A stretch of DNA of 64,000 bases from Vicingaceae bacterium (GTDB taxonomy: Bacteria > Bacteroidota > Bacteroidia > Flavobacteriales_E > Vicingaceae): the NCBI GenBank assembly GCA_018402765.1, contig JAGYIE010000003.1, positions 124,001 through 188,000 on the forward strand. The letters are read 5' to 3'. Made by a program: the position numbers and the translations under genes. The notes beneath the pieces are model-generated. The model saw only the letters and a program-made list of their open reading frames with translations, was not told the origin of the DNA and did not search any database. This document shows positions 5,539-34,422 of the stretch, in pieces. The stretch's first letter is position 1. The number at the start of each line of letters is the position of its first letter.

Positions 5539-6833
5539 CGGATAGATAAATTGAATTTTTGATTGATTTTATTGAAATCAATACATGAAAAAATAATGGT
5601 AAAGATAAAAGGCAAAAATGGGACTTTATAACGAACTATTGCTCCTAAAATAGGAGTTGTCCAACCAATTAAGGTTCCTAAAGTTAAGGTGAAAAATAAT
5701 CCAAAAAATAAAAAGTTGAGTTGAGATTTTGTTGGACGTTTGAAGAAGAAAGTCATCACTACAATTGCAATCAGTAGGAATAAATTCTCAGCTGACGCTA
5801 GCAAATAAAAAATAGAATTGATTTCAGTAATAAATGGTCGAAAAAGCACTGTCATCAATACTTCTGGTTGGGCAAAAATAGCCGATAAAGGAGTTTGTAT
5901 AGTTGGTACATCAATTACGCTTCCTGCTTCATTCAGCATAGCGACATTATAAAATGCCGTTTGTTTCTGTTGCAATAGATCGAATAAGTCAAAAATACCT
6001 AAGCCTTTAAACAACAGAATTAAAGCAAGTCCCAATAGCGCAACAGCTGGATAGGTAAGCAATGGTTTTATTTTGAAAAATTTTACACTAATAGCAGCAG
6101 CAGAAGCAGGTACTAGTGAAAGCAGTACATAGGGTTTTATGATAAGCATTAATGCAATTCCGAGAAGGAGTAATAAGCTATTTTTTAAAGTAACAACTAA
6201 AATCCAGTTAAACAAGAAGTAGACAAACAGCCCTAATGAGAACAGTAAAAATCCTTCCTTTAAAATTCCTGAACCCCAAAGCAGAGTAGATGGAATCAGA
6301 AACAAGCCAAATAATAGTGCTGATTTAGGCAATTCAAGTTGTTTGTCGACTACTTTATAAATTGCGATAAGCCCTATGAAAGAAATAAAATTGATAAACA
6401 AGGTGTGTAAATGTATAAACCCAAATGAAAGATAATTGATTAAAAAGTTAAAGCGGATCATGGTTCGGTTGTCGTTTAATACGCCAAAATTGTATTCCCT
6501 TGACCAGTTCATAGTTCCTTTTAATATTTTGGTTATTTCTGGATTTTCAATGCCCAAAAACCATTGGATGGCTAAAGTTGGTTGATCCCTTAATTGACTA
6601 AAAAGATAGTATCCGTCATCGAAGTATTTATAAATGTCGGCATTAGCCCGGTCAGTGTAATAGTAAGTGTATAGAGCCCAAAGTCCTGTGCCGGCAATTA
6701 CTTTTACTAGAAAAGCCAATTGAAGTACGATTGGTTTTACGCCTTCTAGTTGAAAGAAATTGAAGCGCTTAATTAGGAATATAAACCATAATAGAAAAGC
6801 GATGAATACAATTACTTGAATGGCTAACGTCAT
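5535..6833 (-). CDS. Polytopic membrane protein, possibly GT-C-like
   Basis: A 432-residue protein with roughly ten hydrophobic helices. After the first two helices comes an outside loop with acidic residues (ADIYKYFDDGYYLF), and near residue 190 a conserved-looking LLWGSGILKEGFL segment. This layout resembles GT-C type glycosyltransferases or EpsG-like polymerases, which put an acidic motif in the first periplasmic loop, but no signature is strong enough to assign an activity. Its stop overlaps the start of the amidohydrolase gene by 4 bp (ATGA). It diverges from purL across a 114-bp gap. Confidence 0.7.
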   Translation of the reverse strand: MTLAIQVIVFIAFLLWFIFLIKRFNFFQLEGVKPIVLQLAFLVKVIAGTGLWALYTYYYTDRANADIYKYFDDGYYLFSQLRDQPTLAIQWFLGIENPEITKILKGTMNWSREYNFGVLNDNRTMIRFNFLINYLSFGFIHLHTLFINFISFIGLIAIYKVVDKQLELPKSALLFGLFLIPSTLLWGSGILKEGFLLFSLGLFVYFLFNWILVVTLKNSLLLLLGIALMLIIKPYVLLSLVPASAAAISVKFFKIKPLLTYPAVALLGLALILLFKGLGIFDLFDLLQQKQTAFYNVAMLNEAGSVIDVPTIQTPLSAIFAQPEVLMTVLFRPFITEINSIFYLLASAENLFLLIAIVVMTFFFKRPTKSQLNFLFFGLFFTLTLGTLIGWTTPILGAIVRYKVPFLPFIFTIIFSCIDFNKINQKFNLSIR

Positions 6834-6890
6834 TATTCAAAATTAATTTAAAAATAGTCAGTCTTTGGTGAAAAATATGCATTAATTGGG

Positions 6891-6921
6891 TTGGTAGATG
6901 GGAATCAAAATTTTACTTTTG
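6891..6921 (+). promoter_or_regulatory. purL promoter
   Basis: TTGG at 6891-6894 and TACTTTTG at 6914-6921, separated by 19 nt, match the Bacteroidota primary-sigma consensus (TTTG/TTG, 17-23 nt, TAnnTTTG). The purL ATG is 26 nt downstream of the -7 box. Confidence 0.7.
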
Positions 6922-6947
6922 CAGCTTACTAACCGCACCTTCAAAAA

Positions 6948-9185
6948 ATGGAAGAGAACACATTGAACGAAGCAACCGTAGAAACGGCAGTTGAATTAGG
7001 TTTACTACCTGAGGAATTTGAAAAAATCAAGCAGATATTGGGTCGCACGCCCAACTTTACAGAGGTGAGTATATACTCTGTAATGTGGTCAGAGCATTGT
7101 TCCTACAAGAATTCGATTACTTGGTTGAAAAAATTACCAAAAGAAGGTCCGCATATGTTGGCAGAAGCAGGCGAAGAAAACGCTGGTTTAGTTGATATTG
7201 GTGATGGATTAGCATGTGCTTTTAAGATAGAGTCACATAATCACCCGTCAGCATTAGAACCCTTCCAAGGTGCGGCAACTGGTGTAGGTGGTATCAATCG
7301 AGATATTTTTACAATGGGCGCCCGCCCGATAGCTCAATTGAATTCCTTGCGTTTTGGTTCTATTGATTCAGACCGAACAAAATGGTTATTGAAAGGAGTG
7401 GTAAAAGGAATTGGAAGTTATGGAAATGCATTTGGTATTCCTGTAGTTGGGGGAGAGGTGTTCTTTGATGAATGTTACAACACCAATCCATTAGTAAATG
7501 CCATGTCTGCCGGAATTATGAAGGCGGATAAAATGATTTCAGCTACATCTTATGGAGTTGGAAATCCAGTTTATATCGTTGGGTCTGCCACAGGTAAAGA
7601 TGGAATCCATGGAGCAGCATTTGCTTCGAAAGATATAACCGAAGAATCTGCAAATGATTTACCTGCTGTTCAAGTGGGTGATCCTTTTCAAGAGAAATTA
7701 TTACTTGAGGCTTCTTTAGAATTAGCTGAAACCGATGCAATTATTGGAATGCAAGATATGGGTGCGGCTGGAATTACCTGTTCTACTTCAGAAATGAGTG
7801 GAAAAGAAGGATTCGGTATGACCATCGATTTAGATAAAGTGCCTACTCGTCAGGAAGGCATGAAGCCCTTTGAGATTTTGTTATCAGAGTCTCAAGAGCG
7901 TATGTTGGTAGTAGTAAAGAAAGGAAGAGAAGCTGAAGTAGAAGCTATTTTTGACAAATGGGATTTGAATTGTGAGCAAATCGGTGAAGTAACCGAAGGT
8001 GGACAATTGGAGTATTATATGGGTGGTAAATTAGTTGCTCATGTTCCTGCTGAATCATTAGTATTAGGTGGTGGAGCACCCGTTTATGAAAGGGAATATA
8101 AAGAACCGGCTTATTTTGCGGAATCTCAAAAGTTCAAAATTGATTCAATTGAAGAGCCGAAAGACTTAAAAGAAGTGGCTTACTTTCTAATCAATCACCC
8201 GAATATCGCTTCTAAGAAGTGGGTAATTGAGCAGTATGACTCTATGGTTGGTACGATTAATATGAGCACCAATAAACCTACTGATGCAGGTATTGTAAAT
8301 ATCAAAGGGTTGAATAAAGCCTTAGCATTTACAGTAGATTGCAATGCGCGTTACGTGAATGCAAACCCAGAAGAAGGTTGTGCAATCGCAGTTGCAGAAG
8401 CAGCTAGGAACATTGTTTGTTCAGGTGGAGAGCCTTCTGCAATTACTAATTGTTTGAATTTTGGTAACCCATATAACCCTGAAGTGTACTGGCAGTTTGT
8501 AGGAGCGATTAAAGGAATGAAAAAGTCGTGTGAGAAATTTAAAACTCCTGTAACTGGTGGAAACGTTAGTTTCTATAACCAAAGTATGCAGAATGGAAAA
8601 GATGTACCTGTATTCCCTACGCCGACAATTGGTATGATGGGAATCGTTACAGATAAGAAGTTCATAACTTCTTTGGCTTTCCAAAACGAAGGAGATTTAA
8701 TTTACCTAATTGGTGGTGCTCAAAATGATATCAATTCATCAGAATATTTATATTCTTACCATAAAGTAAAACAATCGCCTTCTCCATACTTTAATTTGGA
8801 TGAAGAGCATGCATTGCAGAATCAAGTAAAAAGATTGATTCAAGCAGGTATGTTGAACTCAGCTCACGATGTGGCGGATGGGGGTTTATTCATCACCTTA
8901 TTGGAGGCAGGTATGCCAAACGGATTAGGATTCTTAGTAGAAACAGATAGTGACTTTAGAAAAGATGCGTACTTATTTGGTGAAGCTCAAAGTAGAGTAG
9001 TGGCGTCTATCAACCCTGATAATCAAAATGAGTTTGTAGAGCACATGGTAGCTTCTGGATTGGAGTATACATTCTTAGGAACGGCAGAAGGAAAAGAAAT
9101 GATCATCGATGGGGTATCATTCGGAACAGTAGCTGATGCGAAACACCAATTTGAAACTGCTTTAGAGAATAGATTGAATAGCTAA
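6948..9185 (+). CDS. purL: Phosphoribosylformylglycinamidine synthase subunit PurL
   Basis: This 745-residue protein is the small, ATP-dependent PurL subunit of purine synthesis, converting FGAR to FGAM with ammonia supplied by separate PurQ and PurS proteins. Visible features: N-terminal [13 protein letters not shown], the substrate-binding [20 protein letters not shown] stretch, GGINRDIF, and the repeated second PurM-like half with DVADGGLF. Length fits the small form; the large single-chain form is ~1200-1300 residues. No purQ or purS is in the window. It has its own promoter and a strong terminator, so it is monocistronic. purB, elsewhere in the window, acts later in the same pathway. Confidence 0.97.
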
Positions 9186-23501: not shown

Positions 23502-24923
23502 ATGTCTAACGCTTTTATCGACTTATTTATTTCGCAGATGGGCCATACGCCTACAAACGACCAAATGGTCCTTATAGAGCGAATGGGTCGATTTGTAACC
23601 AAGCGAGATGGACACTGGGCATACATTATAAGAGGATACGCAGGAACAGGTAAAACCACCACGGTAGGCGCGTTAGTAAAAGCACTACCAATCGTTGGAC
23701 AGCAGTCAGTTTTATTAGCCCCAACAGGTAGAGCTGCGAAAGTTCTTTCCAATTTTGCTGGTAAGAAAGCATTTACCATTCACAAAGCAATTTATCAAAT
23801 AAAGAGTGGGGCAGATGGGCTATCTCGATTTTCTCTTACAGCCAATAAAAGTCAAAATACTGTATTTATTGTTGATGAGGCATCAATGATATCAGATGTT
23901 GGTGGCTTATCGTCATCAAAATTTGGCTCGAGCAGAAGCCTTTTGGATGATCTAATGGAATTTGTGTTCAGTGGTCATAACTGCAAGCTTATTTTTATTG
24001 GTGATATCGCTCAATTGCCTCCTGTTGGTATGGATATTAGCCCTGCATTGGAGCCCAAGCAATTAAAAGCGAATTATCCAATAGAGTTAAAAGGTGCAGA
24101 GTTAAAGGAAGTGGTTCGACAAAAAGAAGAATCAGGTATTTTGTACAATGCAACTAAGTTAAGAGCGAGTTTAATGGGTAAAAATATGGAGATTCAGTTT
24201 GAAGTTGCTCCGTATGATGATGTTTATAGAATTACAGGTGAAGATTTGGAAGATGTTTTAAACACGGCTTACTCTGCCGATAGCGAAGATGACACGATAG
24301 TAATTTGCCGCTCGAATAAAAGAGCCAACTTATTTAATGGTGAGATTCGTCAGCGTATCCGTTGGATGGAAAATGAAATAGCCACAGGAGAATACATAAT
24401 GATTGTTAAGAACAACTACTTCTGGCTAGACGAAAAATCAAAAGCAGGGTTTATTGCAAACGGAGATATAGCAGAAATTCTTCGATTAGGAAATACTGAG
24501 ATACTGTATGGTTTTCGATTTATTGATGCCACTTTACGATTAGTTGATTATCCTGATGAACCCCCAATTGACGTAAAGCTGTTGCTAGATTCACTGTCTT
24601 CTGAAAGCCCTGCTTTACCGGCTGAAGATGCTCAGCGTTTGTTTAATAGCGTAATAGAAGATTATGCAGATGAGCCCAATAGACAAAAAAAATATGAGTT
24701 GTTAAAAAAGAACCCTTACTTTAATGCACTTCAGATAAAATTCGCTTATGCTATAACTTGTCATAAATCACAAGGCGGACAGTGGAAGAATGTTATTGTT
24801 GATCAGGGCTATTTAACAGAAGAAATGATTGATGTAGCCTACATGCGTTGGCTTTACACTGCCATTACAAGAGCCACCTCCAAGTTATACCTATTAAATT
24901 TTAATGATCGATTTTTTAATTAA
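23502..24923 (+). CDS. RecD/Pif1-like ATP-dependent DNA helicase
   Basis: A 473-residue superfamily 1B helicase. Walker A is GYAGTGKTTT near residues 45-54, motif II is FIVDEASMI near 124, a GDIAQLPPVG motif III follows near 170, and the C-terminal UvrD-like half ends with the conserved YAITCHKSQGGQW and YTAITRATSKLYL motifs. It is shorter than full RecD and lacks the N-terminal RecD domains, so it is a stand-alone helicase as found in many Bacteroidota. The last 8 bp overlap the end of the convergent PorE-like gene. Confidence 0.9.
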   Translation: MSNAFIDLFISQMGHTPTNDQMVLIERMGRFVTKRDGHWAYIIRGYAGTGKTTTVGALVKALPIVGQQSVLLAPTGRAAKVLSNFAGKKAFTIHKAIYQIKSGADGLSRFSLTANKSQNTVFIVDEASMISDVGGLSSSKFGSSRSLLDDLMEFVFSGHNCKLIFIGDIAQLPPVGMDISPALEPKQLKANYPIELKGAELKEVVRQKEESGILYNATKLRASLMGKNMEIQFEVAPYDDVYRITGEDLEDVLNTAYSADSEDDTIVICRSNKRANLFNGEIRQRIRWMENEIATGEYIMIVKNNYFWLDEKSKAGFIANGDIAEILRLGNTEILYGFRFIDATLRLVDYPDEPPIDVKLLLDSLSSESPALPAEDAQRLFNSVIEDYADEPNRQKKYELLKKNPYFNALQIKFAYAITCHKSQGGQWKNVIVDQGYLTEEMIDVAYMRWLYTAITRATSKLYLLNFNDRFFN

Positions 24924-27705
24924 GTCCTAAAGCATTTTCATAAGTTCCCTTAACTAGATCTATCATTAATAACCTTTTATCTTTATAGAATGGAGTAATC
25001 CATGCATCCTTAGTTCCATTTTTAATGATTTGTTGTCGTAAAACCTCTGCATCGCTAAATGTTTTAAAATCACCTTGTGTAAATCGTGTTATGGCATCAC
25101 CATAGTTTCTAATTTTAGGTTCTCCAAATGCTAATAGGTGAGCATATTTAAAATTATTGGGCTTTCTATATGCACCAATTTGCACTTCAAAATGTAAATC
25201 TGGGTGGCAGATAGGTCCTACTAGTTTTAATAGTCGGTTGTAATTTTCTTCTTCTTGGATATCTTTTAGTATAAATGCAGTAAAAGCTTCGAGCGTGTAT
25301 TTATCGCAAGGGTCTTTCATTAAGTCCAATTTCTTTGCTTTGATTTGATCATCGGTTGGCAAGGTAGATTTACTTTCAGCATCTTTTGCGGTTTCATTTT
25401 CACTAGGTTGAAATTGAGCTATTATTTCTTGATCTGTGGCTTCACCTGTTTCAACTTTTGTAGACCCTTCGTCAGGCAATGATGAAGGGTCTGCAGGAAT
25501 TCCTTCTTCTTTTTCTAGAGTTGGTGTAATGGCTGCAACATCCTCTTTAGTTTTACTTATTTCCACCTCTTCGTTCGTTGAGGTGTTTGGCTCTAGTCCA
25601 TCCAAGGTGAACTCTTGTGTAAATTCATCCACTGTTTTTCGCTGTCCAAAAACAAAAACGGTTATAAATGCATCAGCAGCAAGAGGTTCTCTCTCAATGA
25701 GCATGTCTCTGAAATTTTCAGCAAACTCTAATGTTTCAAAAGGCCCAAAGGTATATCTGTGAAATCCGTCATCATACAGTTTTCTTGATATTTTACCGTA
25801 CTTATTAAGTTCAATTAATTGAAAATCATTTGTATCCTTAAATGCACCTAATTCAACTTTAAAAGACAATCCTGCTATCTTTTTATCATTTGCAGATTCC
25901 AATCCTCCGCCTGCTAATTCATCTGTTTTAGCGGCCTCTCTTAATTCTCTATTGAATTTTTTTAGTTTAGAAATTTGTTGATTTAAATCAATATTAGAAT
26001 ATTCTATACTATCGCCTGCAAATTCTTTAACTCTTAAGATTTGTTCATTTAGCTTGTCTTGTAATGATGGTTCATTTTCTTTGAGTGATTCTAACTCTTC
26101 TCGTTCTTTTTTAGGCGTTTCATTTGTATATAAATTTATATTATGATTCACCTGAATAAATGTTTCTACAGATTCTACATCAATATATTCATAAGTGGTT
26201 TTAGCTCCCTCTATCTCTATGGCAATTCTGTATTTTTTGCCTGGAATTAGGGAAAGCATAAATTGCCCTGATTTGTCGTCAGAAACGGTACTACTTGCAT
26301 ATTCGCCTGTTTGAGCATCAGAAGCTACTATATCAGCTTTTATGGCTTGACCGTCTGCTCTAGTAACTCCTACAAGCAATGTTAATATTGGTCGTTTCCC
26401 AAAATGACCTGGACTTACTACATAGATATCATTACCACCATAAGAGTCTTCTTTGCCTGCAGATGAATAATAGCCTCTAGAACCATCAGCTGTTAATACG
26501 TAATATCGATCATCTTCAATCGTATTTACAGGGTAACCTATATTAGTAGGGGCATCCCAAACTCCTTCATCTAAGTAAGTGTAGAAAATGTCATATCCAC
26601 CAATACTGTTATGCCCTTTTGAACTATAATATAAGGTTCGTCCATCGGGATGGATGAAAGGCGCATCCTCATCATAGCGGGTATTGATTGTTGGGCCTAA
26701 ATTTTGAACATTACCCCAATCGCCATTGGATTTTAGTTCTGCTTTGTAGATATCTCGACCACCATAGCCTCCTGGACGTTCACTTGTAAAATAAAGAGTT
26801 TTTTCATCACTTGATAGACTTGCGCTGCCTTCCCACCACTCCGAGTTAATTTCTGAATTTAATATAGATGGAGTCGTCCATGCACCTTTTTTAAGCTCAC
26901 TTAAATAGATATCTCCGGCGTTCTTATTACTGCTTTTGTATGTAAATAATTTATTTCCACTTGCAGAAATTGCAATACCTGCATCGTGCTTACTAGAGTT
27001 GATATTACTTCCAATGCTTCTTGGGCTAGACCATTCGTCTCCTGATTTGTACGAAATCATTATATCTTCATAATATTCTCCTTTTGGATCGCTATTGCCT
27101 GCTCTATCCATTCTGCCGCCTATACTTTTCTCACCTCTATACGTAAAAATAAGTATGCGTTCATCGGGAGTAATTATGGGTACATATTCTTCGTATTTTG
27201 TATTGATAGGTGATCCAATGTTTTTAATTACTAACGCTAAACTGTCTGATACTATACTTTTAGCATTTTTACAGTTAGCTATAAATAGTTTAGCCTTTTC
27301 CCTTTCTTCTGCAAGTAAGTCAGGATTGTTTAAGTATTCGTTGAAATAGTTAATTGCATTGTCAAACTCATGATTGACTGCATAAGCACGACCAATGAAA
27401 AAATTAACCTCAGCGTATTCAGGATTTTTCTTTTTTACATCAAGAAGGTACGTCAATGACTCTTCTTTTTTATCAGTTAAAAAAGTATAACAAATTCCAA
27501 TCATCAACTCGTAATAGAGATCGTTTGGATTGGCTTTGTTTAACCGCTCAAAGATCGTTGCAGCAGTGCTATAATATCCATCGTTATAGTAGCCTTCTCC
27601 TTTTTGAGTAAGTAGTTTTACTTCTTTTTTCGAAAAAACTTCTTGTGCAAATAGGTTTGACGATATAATCGCTATAAAAATTAAGCTGGTCGTTATATTC
27701 TTCAT
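24916..27705 (-). CDS. PorE-like PD40 protein with two SPOR-like repeats
   Basis: A 929-residue exported protein. Order of parts: signal peptide (residues 1-20), TPR-like helices (~25-135), a PD40/WD40-like propeller with repeated EDAPFIHPDGRTLYYSS-type and SERPGGYGGRDIY-type motifs (~170-435), a carboxypeptidase-regulatory-like beta domain (~440-530), a coiled coil (~540-600), a SPOR-like domain (~613-695), an acidic low-complexity linker (~695-800) and a second SPOR-like domain (~838-925). The first three parts match PorE, a T9SS envelope protein that ends in a peptidoglycan-binding OmpA domain. Here SPOR-like repeats, which bind glycan strands in other proteins, sit in its place. A periplasmic scaffolding role is inferred. 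Confidence 0.78.
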   Translation of the reverse strand: MKNITTSLIFIAIISSNLFAQEVFSKKEVKLLTQKGEGYYNDGYYSTAATIFERLNKANPNDLYYELMIGICYTFLTDKKEESLTYLLDVKKKNPEYAEVNFFIGRAYAVNHEFDNAINYFNEYLNNPDLLAEEREKAKLFIANCKNAKSIVSDSLALVIKNIGSPINTKYEEYVPIITPDERILIFTYRGEKSIGGRMDRAGNSDPKGEYYEDIMISYKSGDEWSSPRSIGSNINSSKHDAGIAISASGNKLFTYKSSNKNAGDIYLSELKKGAWTTPSILNSEINSEWWEGSASLSSDEKTLYFTSERPGGYGGRDIYKAELKSNGDWGNVQNLGPTINTRYDEDAPFIHPDGRTLYYSSKGHNSIGGYDIFYTYLDEGVWDAPTNIGYPVNTIEDDRYYVLTADGSRGYYSSAGKEDSYGGNDIYVVSPGHFGKRPILTLLVGVTRADGQAIKADIVASDAQTGEYASSTVSDDKSGQFMLSLIPGKKYRIAIEIEGAKTTYEYIDVESVETFIQVNHNINLYTNETPKKEREELESLKENEPSLQDKLNEQILRVKEFAGDSIEYSNIDLNQQISKLKKFNRELREAAKTDELAGGGLESANDKKIAGLSFKVELGAFKDTNDFQLIELNKYGKISRKLYDDGFHRYTFGPFETLEFAENFRDMLIEREPLAADAFITVFVFGQRKTVDEFTQEFTLDGLEPNTSTNEEVEISKTKEDVAAITPTLEKEEGIPADPSSLPDEGSTKVETGEATDQEIIAQFQPSENETAKDAESKSTLPTDDQIKAKKLDLMKDPCDKYTLEAFTAFILKDIQEEENYNRLLKLVGPICHPDLHFEVQIGAYRKPNNFKYAHLLAFGEPKIRNYGDAITRFTQGDFKTFSDAEVLRQQIIKNGTKDAWITPFYKDKRLLMIDLVKGTYENALGLN

Positions 27706-29052: not shown

Positions 29053-31989
29053 CTAAAAGTCCTTAATATTTATTTTTCTTCTCTTTTCGATTATATAAAA
29101 TGAAGAATATAACCCCTCCTTGTCTTTCGTTAGTGTGATAGGAATATTATTTTCTACTAGTTTGAAGCGATCTCCTAGTATGCTTTCGTCTAGGGTAAGT
29201 GTATAGTTTCCAATCGGAAGATAAAACTCAAATTTGCCTTCTGAATCAGTTAACGTATTGTATGTATTTCTGCCATTAGCCGTTATCATTATTCGATCTA
29301 AATTAACACGATCTTTATCGTCAGAAATAGTAATTTGTTGTTGATCAATATTAACCTCTCCAATTACTTGAATTCCTCTTACAAATGGTATGTAAATAAT
29401 GCTGTTGTTAAATATTTCTATACTATCTCTAATTTCGGGAAACCAGCCATTTATTTTAGTAAGGCTAATAATACCTAGTTTGTAATTTCCAAACGATAAG
29501 TTAGTTAACTCTGCTTCTCCATTTTCATCGGTGATAACTTCAAATTCATTTATTCTTAGAACGGTATTTTCTATTGGAATTTCCTTTTCATCATATCGCC
29601 CGTTACCATTTAAGTCATAAAATACTTTAAACTGAGAATTGGAGGAAGTGCTTTTTAAAAAAGGCAGCGGAATTCCAAAGTCTTTCATTATATTAATAGA
29701 AAGGTTTAACGTTGATTGGGTAATGCTTTCTTGATCGGCTGACGTATTTGGTGTGTTGCTTTGGTAACTATCGAACAATGATGAATAGTTATTTGACCTT
29801 AAGTTGTAATTTGCCATCAAACCAAACCGATAACCGTTATTTGTAAAGTATAGAATTTGAGGAAATAATCCAAGATTGTGACTATTAAATCGATTTGTAA
29901 AATTATATGATAACGTGTTTTCCAAAATGAATTTTGGATTTTTAAACTGATATTGATTGTTGATTGACAGTCTTATTTTTTGTGCAGTATAATTCTGCTC
30001 TCTCATGTTAATTAACTCAGATATCGACTGTGCTCCGTAATGATAACGTGACGTAACGTTCCAAACCTTATATCTAATAATACTAGTAAATTCGAAGTTA
30101 AAATAGTTAGGGATTTCTTTAAGATCTATTGGGTCGCTATATCCGGCTTTGAATAACAACGACATTATGGCATTTCGTTTAAAATTGTAATTGGCATATC
30201 TAAAGGAAAGACCGCGGCTGTGCGTTTTGTTTAATCTTACATTATTTACATTATAATATCCGCCCGGCTGCCATGTTCCATTTTTATTGGTTGTGGAAAA
30301 AAAGAAATTATTGAAAAGGTATTCTTGAAGCGGATTATTAAATGCTGCTTGTTTTCTGGAATCAATTTTTTGATAGTTATTATTGATAAAAAAGTTCCAA
30401 TCTCGATTAAAGGTATACCGTGTTCTGTGATTCACGATTGTTCGAGAAAAACCTCCTGAACTAAATTTCCGATCATTGAATCTAAATGTAATCGATGAGT
30501 TTGCTCTTTTATCTAAATAATTAGTAGAATAGCTCCCGCCAAAAAGACTACCAATCTCGGTGCCTCTTAAGCCAATTTTTTGTCTATCTGTTAATGTTGT
30601 TAGTAGGTTTATGGAATGCCTTTTTCCTATAGTAAATGTTGGGCTAATAGAGTAAGCATTGATTTCGTTTCCACTTATTCTGTTAATATTTCTACCTAGC
30701 TTGGCAGTAAGTTTAAAGTTATTGCTTATTCTAGATTCATGTTCAATACCAACGGATTCATTTTGAGCAAGTCCAATTAAAGTTGGGTTTCTTAAATAAT
30801 AAACGGTTGATTTTTGATTTTCAAGATATTTGTAAGAGACTTTAAATCCTTTTCCAAAATTGTTTATCCCATTAATATTTCCTGAAATGTTACCAACTTC
30901 TATTGTTTTCCGTTCATCAAAATAACCAATATACCATGGCGAATTCATAATCGATTTGCTATTCCAGTATGATTCGTTATAATTTAATTGAGCAAAATAG
31001 GAAAGGCTAGCATCTTTGTTTAGTTGCTTAAATCCCCTTGCATTTACATTCATAAAAGAGAAGTCAGAAAGTACATTTTGAATGTTTGCTTCTACTGTTA
31101 GCGGCAATTCATTATCACCAAATTTTCCTACTTCCTTTCTACTATCTAGTCTTAATATATCGATTTTGCTGTTTTTAGAATACTGATTTTCGCCTTTAAG
31201 TTTAGGTTCTGAGGTATGTAAAAACAAGGTAAACTTTTCTACTTCATTCAAGCGTTTAGGATGATATGTCAAAGAAGAAACTTTCTTAAAATTTCGCTCT
31301 CTAAATGGGATAACCTCAGCAGAAAGCTCAATTATTGTATCTTGATATCTCTTTAAATTTATTTGTTGTTTAGGTTTTATTTTACTTTCTAAACTATCTC
31401 TAAGGATAATATTATTCTTTTGTGGTTCAGTACTAAATAGTATTTCTTGATCAAAATTTCCTGTATTCACTATTTGGTAATTAATAGTGGTCTTTTTTTC
31501 ACCTTTTTTTAAGTAGATCCGCTCAGGTGTTAACGATCTAGCTTCCCATGAAACTTCTTTTTTGGTATAAAGTGTAAAATAGGCATTGCCGATTTGTTGA
31601 TTGTCTTGATCTAATAAATATGCATTAATGAAAATATCAGTATTTGTATTGCTAACTTGCTTTGGAATAAAGATGATTGGAATATATATATCATCACCAG
31701 GCTCTAGTGTGTACCCTTTTTGGTCGTCTAACCGCACCCATTCTGAAGGATACAAAATATCGTAGATAAAAAACTTCGTTTCACTTGTTTGATTAACAAT
31801 ATGAAGAACATTGGTGACTAACTGTCCTTTTTTTAATTCTTGAATACTATCTCTAAAAGAAATAGTTAACTGTTCTTGTTTGGTAGGTTGGCCATTCTGA
31901 GATTGTAATGTATGAACAGTGGAAAATAAACATAGGCTTAGTGCTAGCCTGAGTAAGTAGTAGAATAGTTTATTTTTAAGAAGAAACAT
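29053..31989 (-). CDS. Usher-like outer-membrane barrel with Ig-like ends
   Basis: A 978-residue exported protein, last of a four-gene run that begins with a PapD-like chaperone. Residues 1-31 are a signal peptide. Residues ~35-270 form two Ig/CARDB-like beta domains. Residues ~270-780 alternate short polar turns with Tyr/Phe/Asn-rich strands, as in a large outer-membrane barrel. The segment near 789 (FYDLNGNGRYDEKEIP) is a Ca-binding SdrD-B-like motif, and ~860-960 holds a carboxypeptidase-regulatory-like fold (DSEGKFEFYLPIGNYTL). Barrel plus beta-sandwich ends, next to a chaperone and two small secreted proteins, suggests an usher that exports and assembles surface fibres. No usher signature is strong enough to prove it. 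Confidence 0.62.
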   Translation of the reverse strand: MFLLKNKLFYYLLRLALSLCLFSTVHTLQSQNGQPTKQEQLTISFRDSIQELKKGQLVTNVLHIVNQTSETKFFIYDILYPSEWVRLDDQKGYTLEPGDDIYIPIIFIPKQVSNTNTDIFINAYLLDQDNQQIGNAYFTLYTKKEVSWEARSLTPERIYLKKGEKKTTINYQIVNTGNFDQEILFSTEPQKNNIILRDSLESKIKPKQQINLKRYQDTIIELSAEVIPFRERNFKKVSSLTYHPKRLNEVEKFTLFLHTSEPKLKGENQYSKNSKIDILRLDSRKEVGKFGDNELPLTVEANIQNVLSDFSFMNVNARGFKQLNKDASLSYFAQLNYNESYWNSKSIMNSPWYIGYFDERKTIEVGNISGNINGINNFGKGFKVSYKYLENQKSTVYYLRNPTLIGLAQNESVGIEHESRISNNFKLTAKLGRNINRISGNEINAYSISPTFTIGKRHSINLLTTLTDRQKIGLRGTEIGSLFGGSYSTNYLDKRANSSITFRFNDRKFSSGGFSRTIVNHRTRYTFNRDWNFFINNNYQKIDSRKQAAFNNPLQEYLFNNFFFSTTNKNGTWQPGGYYNVNNVRLNKTHSRGLSFRYANYNFKRNAIMSLLFKAGYSDPIDLKEIPNYFNFEFTSIIRYKVWNVTSRYHYGAQSISELINMREQNYTAQKIRLSINNQYQFKNPKFILENTLSYNFTNRFNSHNLGLFPQILYFTNNGYRFGLMANYNLRSNNYSSLFDSYQSNTPNTSADQESITQSTLNLSINIMKDFGIPLPFLKSTSSNSQFKVFYDLNGNGRYDEKEIPIENTVLRINEFEVITDENGEAELTNLSFGNYKLGIISLTKINGWFPEIRDSIEIFNNSIIYIPFVRGIQVIGEVNIDQQQITISDDKDRVNLDRIMITANGRNTYNTLTDSEGKFEFYLPIGNYTLTLDESILGDRFKLVENNIPITLTKDKEGLYSSFYIIEKRRKINIKDF

Positions 31990-31996
31990 CTGTGGC

Positions 31997-32641
31997 TTAT
32001 GGATTTTCTTCTAAAACAAACTTCACGTTCAGTTCGAATAGACCGGGATTAAAAGTAAAATTTGGTTTAACTTTTATGTCAATAGTAAAATTAAACTCAC
32101 TGTAATTTATTTGATAGCTTCCGGGACCATTAACATTTAGAGTGCAGCTTCCTGCAGGAGTAACAGCTAAAAGTGGAGCTATAATATCTATGATGTCTTG
32201 ATCATTGTTGAAATTGGTAAATACTCCATCTATTGGCGATGTATTGCATTCATTTCGCACCCTAATTTCTAAAGCATCTATGGTCGGATTGGAGCCGTTC
32301 CCTAAACCATATAAGTATAACTCCTCCCACTCATTTATAGGAGTTCCACTCACGGAATTATTATCCACAATCATTCTAAGGCTCCATGAGCATAGTGGAT
32401 CGGGTGTACTTTTGTTCTCAACCTTTACTCTAATTCTAGCTACACTATTTATGGTATAACCTCCTTGATAGCGTTGGAAACTATCGAAGGTTAATAGACT
32501 ATTGATACTTGTGTTTGGTTCTATTTCAACTAAACCACAATGAATTTGACTATAAACTGAAGACGTAAAGAAAACAACAAGCGTAATGAAGAGTAAGTTT
32601 TCTCTCAAATGCTGTAGATTAAAATCATAAAGAGGAATCAT
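31997..32641 (-). CDS. Secreted beta-rich protein, candidate fibre subunit
   Basis: A 214-residue exported protein with no recognised family. The signal peptide ends at SVYSQ. The mature part is a beta-sandwich-like sequence with four cysteines, including CSWSLRMIVDNNS and NECNTSPIDG, and finishes in an alternating strand, LFELNVKFVLEENP, that resembles the end of its neighbour (YTMYVQYILLEDQ). Edge strands of this sort carry donor-strand exchange in pilins. The annotated ATG lies inside one arm of a 12-bp hairpin; TTG 32608 is a good alternative start that gives a compact signal peptide beginning RENLLFITLVV. The usher-like gene begins 7 bp after its stop. Confidence 0.6.
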   Translation of the reverse strand: MIPLYDFNLQHLRENLLFITLVVFFTSSVYSQIHCGLVEIEPNTSINSLLTFDSFQRYQGGYTINSVARIRVKVENKSTPDPLCSWSLRMIVDNNSVSGTPINEWEELYLYGLGNGSNPTIDALEIRVRNECNTSPIDGVFTNFNNDQDIIDIIAPLLAVTPAGSCTLNVNGPGSYQINYSEFNFTIDIKVKPNFTFNPGLFELNVKFVLEENP

Positions 32642-32660
32642 CTGTAAGATGATTCCTCTT
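32630..32660 (-). promoter_or_regulatory. 12-bp intercistronic hairpin between the two subunit genes
   Basis: AAGAGGAATCAT (32630-32641) and ATGATTCCTCTT (32649-32660) form a perfect 12-bp stem with a 7-nt loop. On the coding strand it starts 8 nt past the stop of the first subunit gene and its second arm contains the ATG of the next gene. There is no long T run after it, so it is more likely an mRNA-stability or attenuation element than a full terminator. Confidence 0.7.
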
Positions 32661-32668
32661 AGTTTTGT

Positions 32669-33448
32669 TTATTGATCTTCTAATAAAATGTATTGTACAT
32701 ACATGGTATAAACTCCAGGCTCAGCATAAGAACCTGCTCCATTTACAGTTTCGATATCTTCAAATGTTGCACCATCTGCATCTGCAGCCATTGGAAAAAT
32801 AGCAGGAAGACCTGGTAATATTCTGTAATCAATCGTATAGTAATAATTAGAGTTTACCGTATTTTGAGTCATGTAACTCCCTCCTGGCATAAAATCATCA
32901 CCTGCAACTCCTGTAGTTCCTGCATGACCTGCAATATATTTGTCATTAGTACTTGGTGGTGTATTTGTTCCTGCATTTACATAAAGACTGTTTCCTGCGC
33001 TTGGTGTATTCACATCTGACAATGCTTGAGAATAGTCAGAGAATGTTCCTACTGCTGCTCCATCTCCTGTGTTTGGTTGTGTTTGTCTTAGTTCTAGTAA
33101 TGATAAAGGTAGATCAGGAATTGCGTTAGCATTATTGTTTCCATAATCAATTTGTTGATCCCAAAATTCTGGGCCGTTACCTCCATTTGATCTGCCAACT
33201 GCATATAAGTCCCAGCTAACTGTAGAGCTCACTTTTAAAATTGTTGCAGCATACCTGGTGATTCCTGCATAGTAATCATTAATGTCATCAAACACAAATT
33301 CTATTTGGTCTGATGTAGTCATATCTAACTGAAGAACAGGTTGAAGATCCATAGTTATGGTTACATCTTTTTCATCAATAAGTTGTGCTTTTGAAATTCC
33401 AACACCAAGTAATATGATGTTGCTTAAGAGTAGGGTTAGTTTTTTCAT
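32669..33448 (-). CDS. Secreted protein, candidate major fibre subunit
   Basis: A 259-residue exported protein of no recognised family. The signal peptide ends near ISKAQ. The mature part opens with VTITMDLQPVLQLDM, has Gly/Asn-rich loops, no cysteine, and ends in GVYTMYVQYILLEDQ, a Tyr/Val strand at the extreme C-terminus. These traits fit a beta-sandwich pilin-like subunit of a chaperone-assembled fibre, as in spore-coat-U or WxL-type proteins. It is second in the operon, 23 bp after the chaperone gene, and is followed by a strong hairpin, the place where pilin operons often down-tune later genes. Confidence 0.6.
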   Translation of the reverse strand: MKKLTLLLSNIILLGVGISKAQLIDEKDVTITMDLQPVLQLDMTTSDQIEFVFDDINDYYAGITRYAATILKVSSTVSWDLYAVGRSNGGNGPEFWDQQIDYGNNNANAIPDLPLSLLELRQTQPNTGDGAAVGTFSDYSQALSDVNTPSAGNSLYVNAGTNTPPSTNDKYIAGHAGTTGVAGDDFMPGGSYMTQNTVNSNYYYTIDYRILPGLPAIFPMAADADGATFEDIETVNGAGSYAEPGVYTMYVQYILLEDQ

Positions 33449-33471
33449 TGTTATTTAGTTTTAGTTACATG

Positions 33472-34326
33472 TTAATTTATTGTGAATTGCATTTTTGCAG
33501 CTTGTATTTCATCTGCACCCTCAAAATCTAAGACACCTATCGCTGTGTATGTGCCTATCGGTAGTTCTGGAAGTTGAAATTTAAAGTCGCGAATTAGAGA
33601 AGGAACAATAGTAAAGCGTTTTACATTTAATCTATTTTGCTCACCGGTTTCATTATTGATTAAATCAATATATGAATTACAATAAGCAATACCATCCCCC
33701 ATATTCTTTGCTTCAATAATTATAAAGTTTCCATCATCTTCATTTGTAAAGGAAAAATTGATAATTTCTACTTTGTTGTAAGTTACTGTAGGTGGATTTT
33801 GATAGATGTAAACGCCAAAAGCAAAGGTTGGAATAACACCTAATGCTATTGTGCCTGCTCCTTTTTTCTTAGGAGTTAATTCTTTTTTAGGCTCAGCCTG
33901 CTCTATCATAATTACTGACCAAGCAGCTCTATTTCCTTCATCTGTCGCGGGTATTGAAACGGTGTAAGAAAATTCCTTTTTTTCTCCTGGGGCTACTTCA
34001 AAAAATGTCGGAGAGATATTCATAAATTTTGAAAGAGAATATACCCCTTCTCCTTTTGGAATAAAGCTACTTTTCCCTTTTCCATTCATATTAAAGTCAT
34101 AGACCTTTACTTGGAATAGCTGTTTTTTGTCGGTTTGATTAGTAACCGCAATTTTGTGCGTTTCCTGATTTCCAGGCTCTATGGATAAGTGAAAATGTGC
34201 AGGCGATACTGAAATTCCTTTAGATTCTATATCGCGTGAAGCAGTTTTGTCTGAAGCGTTTTGTGCGAAAATTACTTTTGTAAATAGGAGGGAACCTAAA
34301 CAAAATAAGCGTATTTTATTTTTCAA
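33472..34326 (-). CDS. PapD-like periplasmic chaperone
   Basis: A 284-residue exported protein with two Ig-like halves. Signal peptide: KNKIRLFCLGSLLFTKVIFAQ. Domain 1 (~30-150): SVSPAHFHLSIEPGNQETHK, ISPTFFEVAPGEKKEFSYTV and NRAAWSVIMIEQAEP follow the strand pattern of PapD/FimC and WxL-interacting proteins (an N-terminal beta edge, an f(x)VxPGE turn, a G-strand). Domain 2 (~175-284) is another beta-sandwich ending in AAKMQFTIN. No ATG fits; TTG 34326 gives a clean signal peptide. An in-frame TTG at 34365 adds 13 residues but lies across a -7-like box (TACTATTG at 34363-34370). First gene of the operon. Confidence 0.68.
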   Translation of the reverse strand: MKNKIRLFCLGSLLFTKVIFAQNASDKTASRDIESKGISVSPAHFHLSIEPGNQETHKIAVTNQTDKKQLFQVKVYDFNMNGKGKSSFIPKGEGVYSLSKFMNISPTFFEVAPGEKKEFSYTVSIPATDEGNRAAWSVIMIEQAEPKKELTPKKKGAGTIALGVIPTFAFGVYIYQNPPTVTYNKVEIINFSFTNEDDGNFIIIEAKNMGDGIAYCNSYIDLINNETGEQNRLNVKRFTIVPSLIRDFKFQLPELPIGTYTAIGVLDFEGADEIQAAKMQFTIN

Positions 34327-34422
34327 ATCTTTGGGTGATTTTATTAAGTAGTGTTTATAATACAATAGTAACTATAATTTTTGTTAAAGTAAGTTTTTAA
34401 ATAATAATTAGTTTTAAGCTAC

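Follow-up and report, generated by a model that had tools for sequence, protein, structure and literature searches.

What do four closely spaced genes on the minus strand of a Vicingaceae (Bacteroidota) contig build? They occupy positions 29053-34326 of the 64,000-nucleotide stretch analysed here (the window), in the order chaperone, subunit 1, subunit 2, and barrel, with intergenic gaps of 23, 27, and 7 bp. Based on the genes and on structural models, we think it likely that they encode a divergent pathway of the chaperone-usher type, which builds a fibre on the bacterial surface by donor-strand exchange. Such a system had been proposed from the letters alone (the sequence-only reading), and it is supported by the homology of subunit 1 to the fibril proteins TLP-1 and TLP-2, the fold of the chaperone, a FimD/PapC-like barrel of ~24-26 strands, and the conserved gene order. 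Judged by sequence, the pathway does not appear to be a classical, alternative, or archaic member.

Inspection of the open reading frames (ORFs) returned the four genes and their gaps where they had been placed, and the quoted C-termini of the two subunits (YTMYVQYILLEDQ and LFELNVKFVLEENP) and the barrel length of 978 residues are exact. The chaperone ORF begins at a TTG at 34365, and a start at 34326 yields a better signal peptide (MKNKIRLFCLGSLLFTKVIFAQ). The unit and its parts, which include several immunoglobulin-like (Ig) domains, are as follows.

33472..34326, minus strand: periplasmic chaperone with two PapD/WxLIP-like Ig domains (Pfam WxLIP_PGBD above cut-off; model of a relative; the ORF is open from 34365)
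33784..33828, minus strand: putative chaperone G1 donor strand TFAFGVYIYQNPPTV (top-conserved 15-mer; a strand in the model)
32669..33448, minus strand: subunit 1, main fibre pilin and TLP-1/TLP-2 homologue (hmmsearch to 9ikk and 9ikj)
33326..33385, minus strand: QLIDEKDVTITMDLQPVLQL, the extension at the N-terminus of mature subunit 1 and putative donor strand (near-invariant; starts where the TLP chain starts)
32672..32716, minus strand: GVYTMYVQYILLEDQ, C-terminal strand of subunit 1 and putative edge of the acceptor groove or chaperone contact (second in 15-mer conservation; fixed C-terminus)
31997..32641, minus strand: subunit 2, pilin homologue without an N-terminal donor strand, putative tip (hhalign to subunit 1; length before the F-D motif)
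32000..32047, minus strand: C-terminal strand of subunit 2, PGLFELNVKFVLEENP (conserved)
29053..31989, minus strand: usher-like outer-membrane barrel protein, 978 residues (AlphaFold2 (AF2) model; top Foldseek matches FimD/PapC)
31132..31869, minus strand: two Ig-like periplasmic domains (PapD/TMEM131-like) at the N-terminus of the barrel protein (strands within residues 41-286; Pfam TMEM131_like_N E 2e-5, below cut-off)
29668..31110, minus strand: barrel of ~24-26 strands, residues 294-774, with no plug insertion (DSSP of the model; insertions in 33 homologues)
29086..29646, minus strand: two C-terminal prealbumin-like beta-domains of the barrel protein (SpaA/SdrD_B/CarboxypepD_reg in Pfam; strands within residues 782-968)

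Subunit 1 is homologous to the protomer of a solved fibre. A profile of 30 subunit 1 sequences matched the PDB entries 9ikk (TLP-2; E 8.3e-62) and 9ikj (TLP-1; E 4.3e-60) by hmmsearch; each entry contains 16 chains, and we take the two to be the helical pond-water fibrils of the CryoSeek study (Wang et al. 2024). The match spans the whole mature chain, with the same N- and C-termini, and subunit 1 of the window is 40.6% identical to TLP over 229 positions. At ~40% identity, the window organism is therefore not the source of the TLP fibrils. When TLP-2 was used as a genome query, its nearest relatives were 45-50% identical, and none of the genomes searched proved to be the exact source organism. 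The best TLP-2 matches (L090-L093 and L096) sit in the same four-gene neighbourhood and, because these nearest relatives carry the same four genes, the link between fibril and operon is well supported at the level of the family. The accessible text of PMC12967142 describes the TLP fibrils, solved directly from pond water, as tied to no sequence or organism by proteomics or metagenomics. The operon is thus a candidate genetic home for the TLP fibril family, which would gain from it a phylum and a set of genes, including those for a chaperone, for a probable tip, and for a probable pore. One genome also carries a solitary subunit 1 homologue (L094, 8557-9348), with none of its three partner genes within 18 kb; the same genome contains a complete operon elsewhere (L093).

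The CryoSeek fibrils reportedly measure ~8 nm across and enclose a narrow tunnel, and the N-terminal strand of protomer n+4 is said to complete the Ig fold of protomer n. Among subunit 1 homologues, the N-terminal extension is near-invariant and the C-terminal strand is the second-best-conserved 15-mer; the putative exchange strands of the operon belong to the best-conserved parts of their proteins. The sequence-only reading had cast the C-terminal strands of the subunits as donor or chaperone-contact strands. Their conservation agrees with an exchange role, but the most likely donor is the N-terminal extension of subunit 1, whose C-terminal strand is most likely the edge that accepts a strand or contacts the chaperone.

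The four genes recur as a unit. When bacterial genomes were scanned with the barrel alignment, 33 true relatives emerged and, among loci with enough flank, 25 Bacteroidota loci besides that of the window keep the order chaperone, subunit 1, subunit 2, and barrel amid unrelated flanks, as the sequence-only reading had proposed to check. Flanking genes are common only to close lineages, which makes these four genes a self-contained unit; given homologues of all four in the same order at 25 loci, they are far beyond chance ORFs. The closest relative is in the window's own genus (L010; Vicingaceae, Flavobacteriales), with a barrel 82% identical. Other hosts include Flavobacteriales, Crocinitomicaceae, Bacteroidales-labelled, and other Bacteroidota metagenome-assembled genomes. 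The operon also occurs in the cultured Wenyingzhuangia aestuarii DSM 105044 (L026), which makes its assembly directly testable. The window's genome has a single barrel copy, and the distribution among its relatives is patchy (9 of 60, counting this genome and including one weak domain hit). The TLP sequence used as a query found subunit 1 matches in 30 of 395 Bacteroidia genomes, so that a lone phylum count of 2 of 394 underestimates the spread.

Besides the solitary L094 gene, three loci depart from the common order. The barrel comes first in L068, and the chaperone lies on the opposite side of the barrel in L089. In L037 a transposase-like ORF separates subunit 1 from subunit 2 (6833-8189) and the barrel frame is broken in two; this is a decaying copy of the operon. 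The intervening L037 gene was considered as an extra subunit and rejected, as its reading frame is transposase-like.

The first gene of the unit encodes a two-domain chaperone. The chaperone of a relative (L020) was modelled together with its subunit 1 as a single read-through fusion, the stop codon being read as serine, and the chaperone half forms two Ig domains with pLDDT (predicted local distance difference test) values mostly of 85-93. In Foldseek searches, this model matches WxLIP of Enterococcus faecium (3e-13) and the chaperones CsuC (2e-9), Caf1M (2e-9), CfaA, FimC (~3e-8), and PapD (range 2e-9 to 1e-7), with the alignments to CsuC, Caf1M, FimC, and PapD covering both domains (~255-270 columns). 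The most conserved 15-mer of the chaperones, TFAFGVYIYQNPPTV, falls at the expected position of the G1 strand and is a strand in the model; the loop immediately before it (residues 157-169) is disordered. Together with the Pfam match to WxLIP_PGBD, these results bear out the earlier description of a two-Ig PapD/FimC-like periplasmic protein. PapD_N scores weakly in the chaperone sequences (best 0.0013), hhalign gave no direct link between the chaperone profile and E. coli chaperones, and a PDB search with the window chaperone as a single sequence returned nothing useful. Weak matches of the chaperone profile to synaptotagmins were dismissed as Ig/C2-like noise.

By hhalign, the two subunits are homologous (probability 98.5, E 3.4e-15), and subunit 2 contains four invariant cysteines; neither subunit matches any Pfam family, WxL included. 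The stretch between the predicted cleavage site and the shared F-D motif is ~11 residues shorter in subunit 2 than in subunit 1, so that subunit 2 lacks an N-terminal strand of the subunit 1 type. As a homologous pilin without this donor strand, it is probably the tip subunit. In two lineages (L035, 7491-8816; L041, 7603-8988), the subunit 2 slot holds a cysteine-bearing subunit-2-like domain fused to a subunit-1-like pilin domain, a natural fusion that resembles two-domain tip adhesins.

The AF2 model of the barrel protein, built from 33 sequences (mean pLDDT 83.9, predicted TM-score (pTM) 0.58), runs from two Ig-like domains at the N-terminus (41-286) through a barrel (294-774) to two C-terminal beta-domains (782-968). 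DSSP counts ~24-26 strands in the barrel, in agreement with the expectation of 20 or more. Foldseek against the PDB ranks FimD (1.5e-13) and PapC (1.8e-9) ahead of BtuB (5e-7) and LptD (2e-6), with FimD supplying six of the eight best matches (six different entries or chains); Ig-rich ciliary proteins also match, owing to the Ig domains. The SdrD-like end, previously thought to have no counterpart in standard ushers, occupies the place of their two C-terminal beta-domains, and therefore has a positional counterpart. Seven homologues (L032, L034, L035, and L038-L041) extend the C-terminus by ~150-250 residues resembling SPOR peptidoglycan-binding domains, with Pfam SPOR matching two of these. 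Two others (L017, 7300-11817; L018, 6478-11817) are longer by 517 and 791 residues, placed behind the signal peptide, with charged repeats such as KRKQDSINTAIAQQKAQREADSIRIAQE that probably form a periplasmic helix. Judging by these SPOR-like ends and N-terminal repeats, the barrel protein has both of its ends in the periplasm, which is consistent with an even number of strands.

Several observations weigh against a chaperone-usher-type pathway. The TM-scores of the barrel model to FimD are ~0.3, with a root-mean-square deviation of ~16 A, so domain placement differs and the FimD/PapC match is supportive, not conclusive. No inter-strand loop in the model is long enough to hold a plug domain, and none is in the 33 homologues, whose long insertions are confined to the region after the signal peptide or the C-terminus. 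The model also lacks an usher-type N-domain. Pfam Usher (PF00577) matches neither the barrel nor anything else in the window's genome, and hhalign against six E. coli ushers gave a probability of 0.2, providing no direct link. In the fused L020 model (pTM 0.44) the subunit half is not confidently folded (pLDDT ~26), and the tip role of subunit 2 is deduced from a missing strand.

In one alternative, the fibre self-assembles and the barrel, a transporter or anchor of the outer membrane, is unrelated to it and present in the operon by chance. An anchor would suit the SPOR-like ends of some homologues, and the low TM-scores and the lack of a sequence link to ushers agree with this explanation. 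The barrel profile found nothing among PDB sequences, and a single-sequence PDB search found nothing useful. Enlarged intermediate families linked the barrel at 27% to the barrels of L099-L128 (544 colinear columns). A stronger link of the wider Bacteroidia family (93.8%) lies in the C-terminal domains, and we therefore do not claim sequence homology between barrel and ushers. However, the barrel is strictly linked with the chaperone and subunits across Bacteroidota, and ushers outrank all other outer-membrane proteins among its matches, making a chance association improbable.

We regard it as slightly less probable that the operon has simply diverged from within the known archaic chaperone-usher family. 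In favour of this explanation, FimD and PapC are the best structural matches of the barrel and CsuC is among the best of the chaperone, but the plug and usher N-domain are absent, none of 395 Bacteroidota genomes passes the Usher cut-off, and both subunits fall outside Pfam. Least probable of all is a diderm WxL-type surface system, in which a WxLIP-like protein would complement the beta-sandwich of the small proteins and anchor a coat near the peptidoglycan or outer membrane, with no fibre and with the barrel as exporter: WxLIP is the best PDB match of the chaperone, WxLIP_PGBD (PF06030) is its best Pfam match (29.8 bits in the window against a cut-off of 27.3; 25 of 27 members), and WxLIP is predicted to complete WxL via strand insertion (PMC10599100), but the match of subunit 1 is to a solved fibre protomer, not to WxL, and the chaperone also matches chaperone-usher chaperones across both domains.

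In the preferred chaperone-usher-type pathway, the subunits would enter the periplasm by Sec, as their signal peptides suggest, and the chaperone would lend its G1 strand (TFAFGVYIY) to their incomplete Ig fold, beside the conserved C-terminal strand (GVYTMYVQYILLEDQ in subunit 1). The N-terminal Ig domains of the barrel protein, its C-terminal beta-domains, or both, may receive the chaperone-subunit complexes. Subunit 2, with an acceptor groove and no donor strand, would start the fibre as its tip; the N-terminal strand of subunit 1, QLIDEKDVTVTMDLQ, would then displace the chaperone strand between subunits, and the chain would exit via the 24-26-strand barrel. By its observed homology, subunit 1 would form a tubular fibre like those of TLP-1 and TLP-2. 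If n+4 exchange applies, each fibre would contain four interleaved strand-exchange chains, for which a single one-subunit-wide pore offers no obvious explanation. This raises the question of how one pore makes an n+4 fibre; several barrels may cooperate, or the tube may form outside.

Related loci are found more widely in the phylum. In two loci from a more distant set of Bacteroidia (L066 and L067), a homologue of the window's barrel is encoded alongside a chaperone and two small secreted proteins. In another Bacteroidota order, 75 of 129 genomes encode an usher-like barrel that aligns with E. coli ushers (hhalign 72-89%). At three inspected loci (L069-L071), this barrel adjoins a chaperone related to that of the window (hhalign 93.5%) and small pilin-like proteins, one of which weakly matches DUF4402. 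These loci (L069, 6391-11392; L070, 5058-12896; L071, 6598-12778) encode barrels of 994-1505 residues with SdrD_B, that of L069 having a SPOR end. They share with the window operon a homologous chaperone and a barrel with an SdrD_B-like end, but differ in their usher-aligning barrel, short pilins, and gene order. They tie the operon to the chaperone-usher world through the chaperone; a barrel-to-barrel sequence link is unproven.

Just downstream of the operon, at 24916-27705 of the window, lies a gene for a 929-residue TPR/PD40-type protein whose C-terminal part looks SPOR-like (FEVQIGAY). A similar gene trails the operon in a sister genome (L002), and is not found there in most others.

How, then, does the operon compare with known systems? 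The TLP-1 and TLP-2 fibrils are homologous to subunit 1 over its whole mature chain and have their closest relatives within this operon type; as far as checked, and leaving the original study aside, they were published without a gene locus or assembly machinery. Our literature search found no paper on a Bacteroidota chaperone-usher system; the operon may have been recognised earlier, and the original CryoSeek study may already note some homologues. The distributions given for chaperone-usher systems, the archaic family included, in the accessible text of PMC4654587 and PMC10104325 cover Proteobacteria, Cyanobacteria, and Deinococcus-Thermus and omit Bacteroidota, a phylum to which our reading would extend this type of assembly.

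The operon has the organisation of a chaperone-usher operon, with chaperone, subunits, and usher-like barrel in one run. It resembles the archaic systems Csu and CupE in its two-Ig chaperone, its barrel, and its pilins with a putative N-terminal donor strand and a conserved C-terminal strand, but differs from them in the lack of a match to PF00577 or any other Pfam pilus family, the absence of a plug, and the WxLIP-like chaperone. The barrel would thus exemplify an usher-like pore without a plug, and the fibre, judged by homology, would be a TLP-like tube, in contrast to the zigzag thread of the archaic systems. With the Gram-positive WxL/WxLIP system (DUF916-DUF3324), the operon shares the chaperone fold, the Pfam match, and a predicted insertion of a strand into the partner (PMC10599100), whereas that system has no outer-membrane barrel or fibre and the subunits of the window are not WxL proteins. 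The chances seem to us about even that the operon represents a separate class specific to Bacteroidota and relatives, in which a chaperone of the WxLIP type and an usher-like barrel with no plug serve a tubular fibre with multiple starts, and which supplies the missing TLP locus. If so, the Gram-positive WxL/WxLIP and PapD-type chaperone-usher systems would be branches of one family of strand-donating chaperones.

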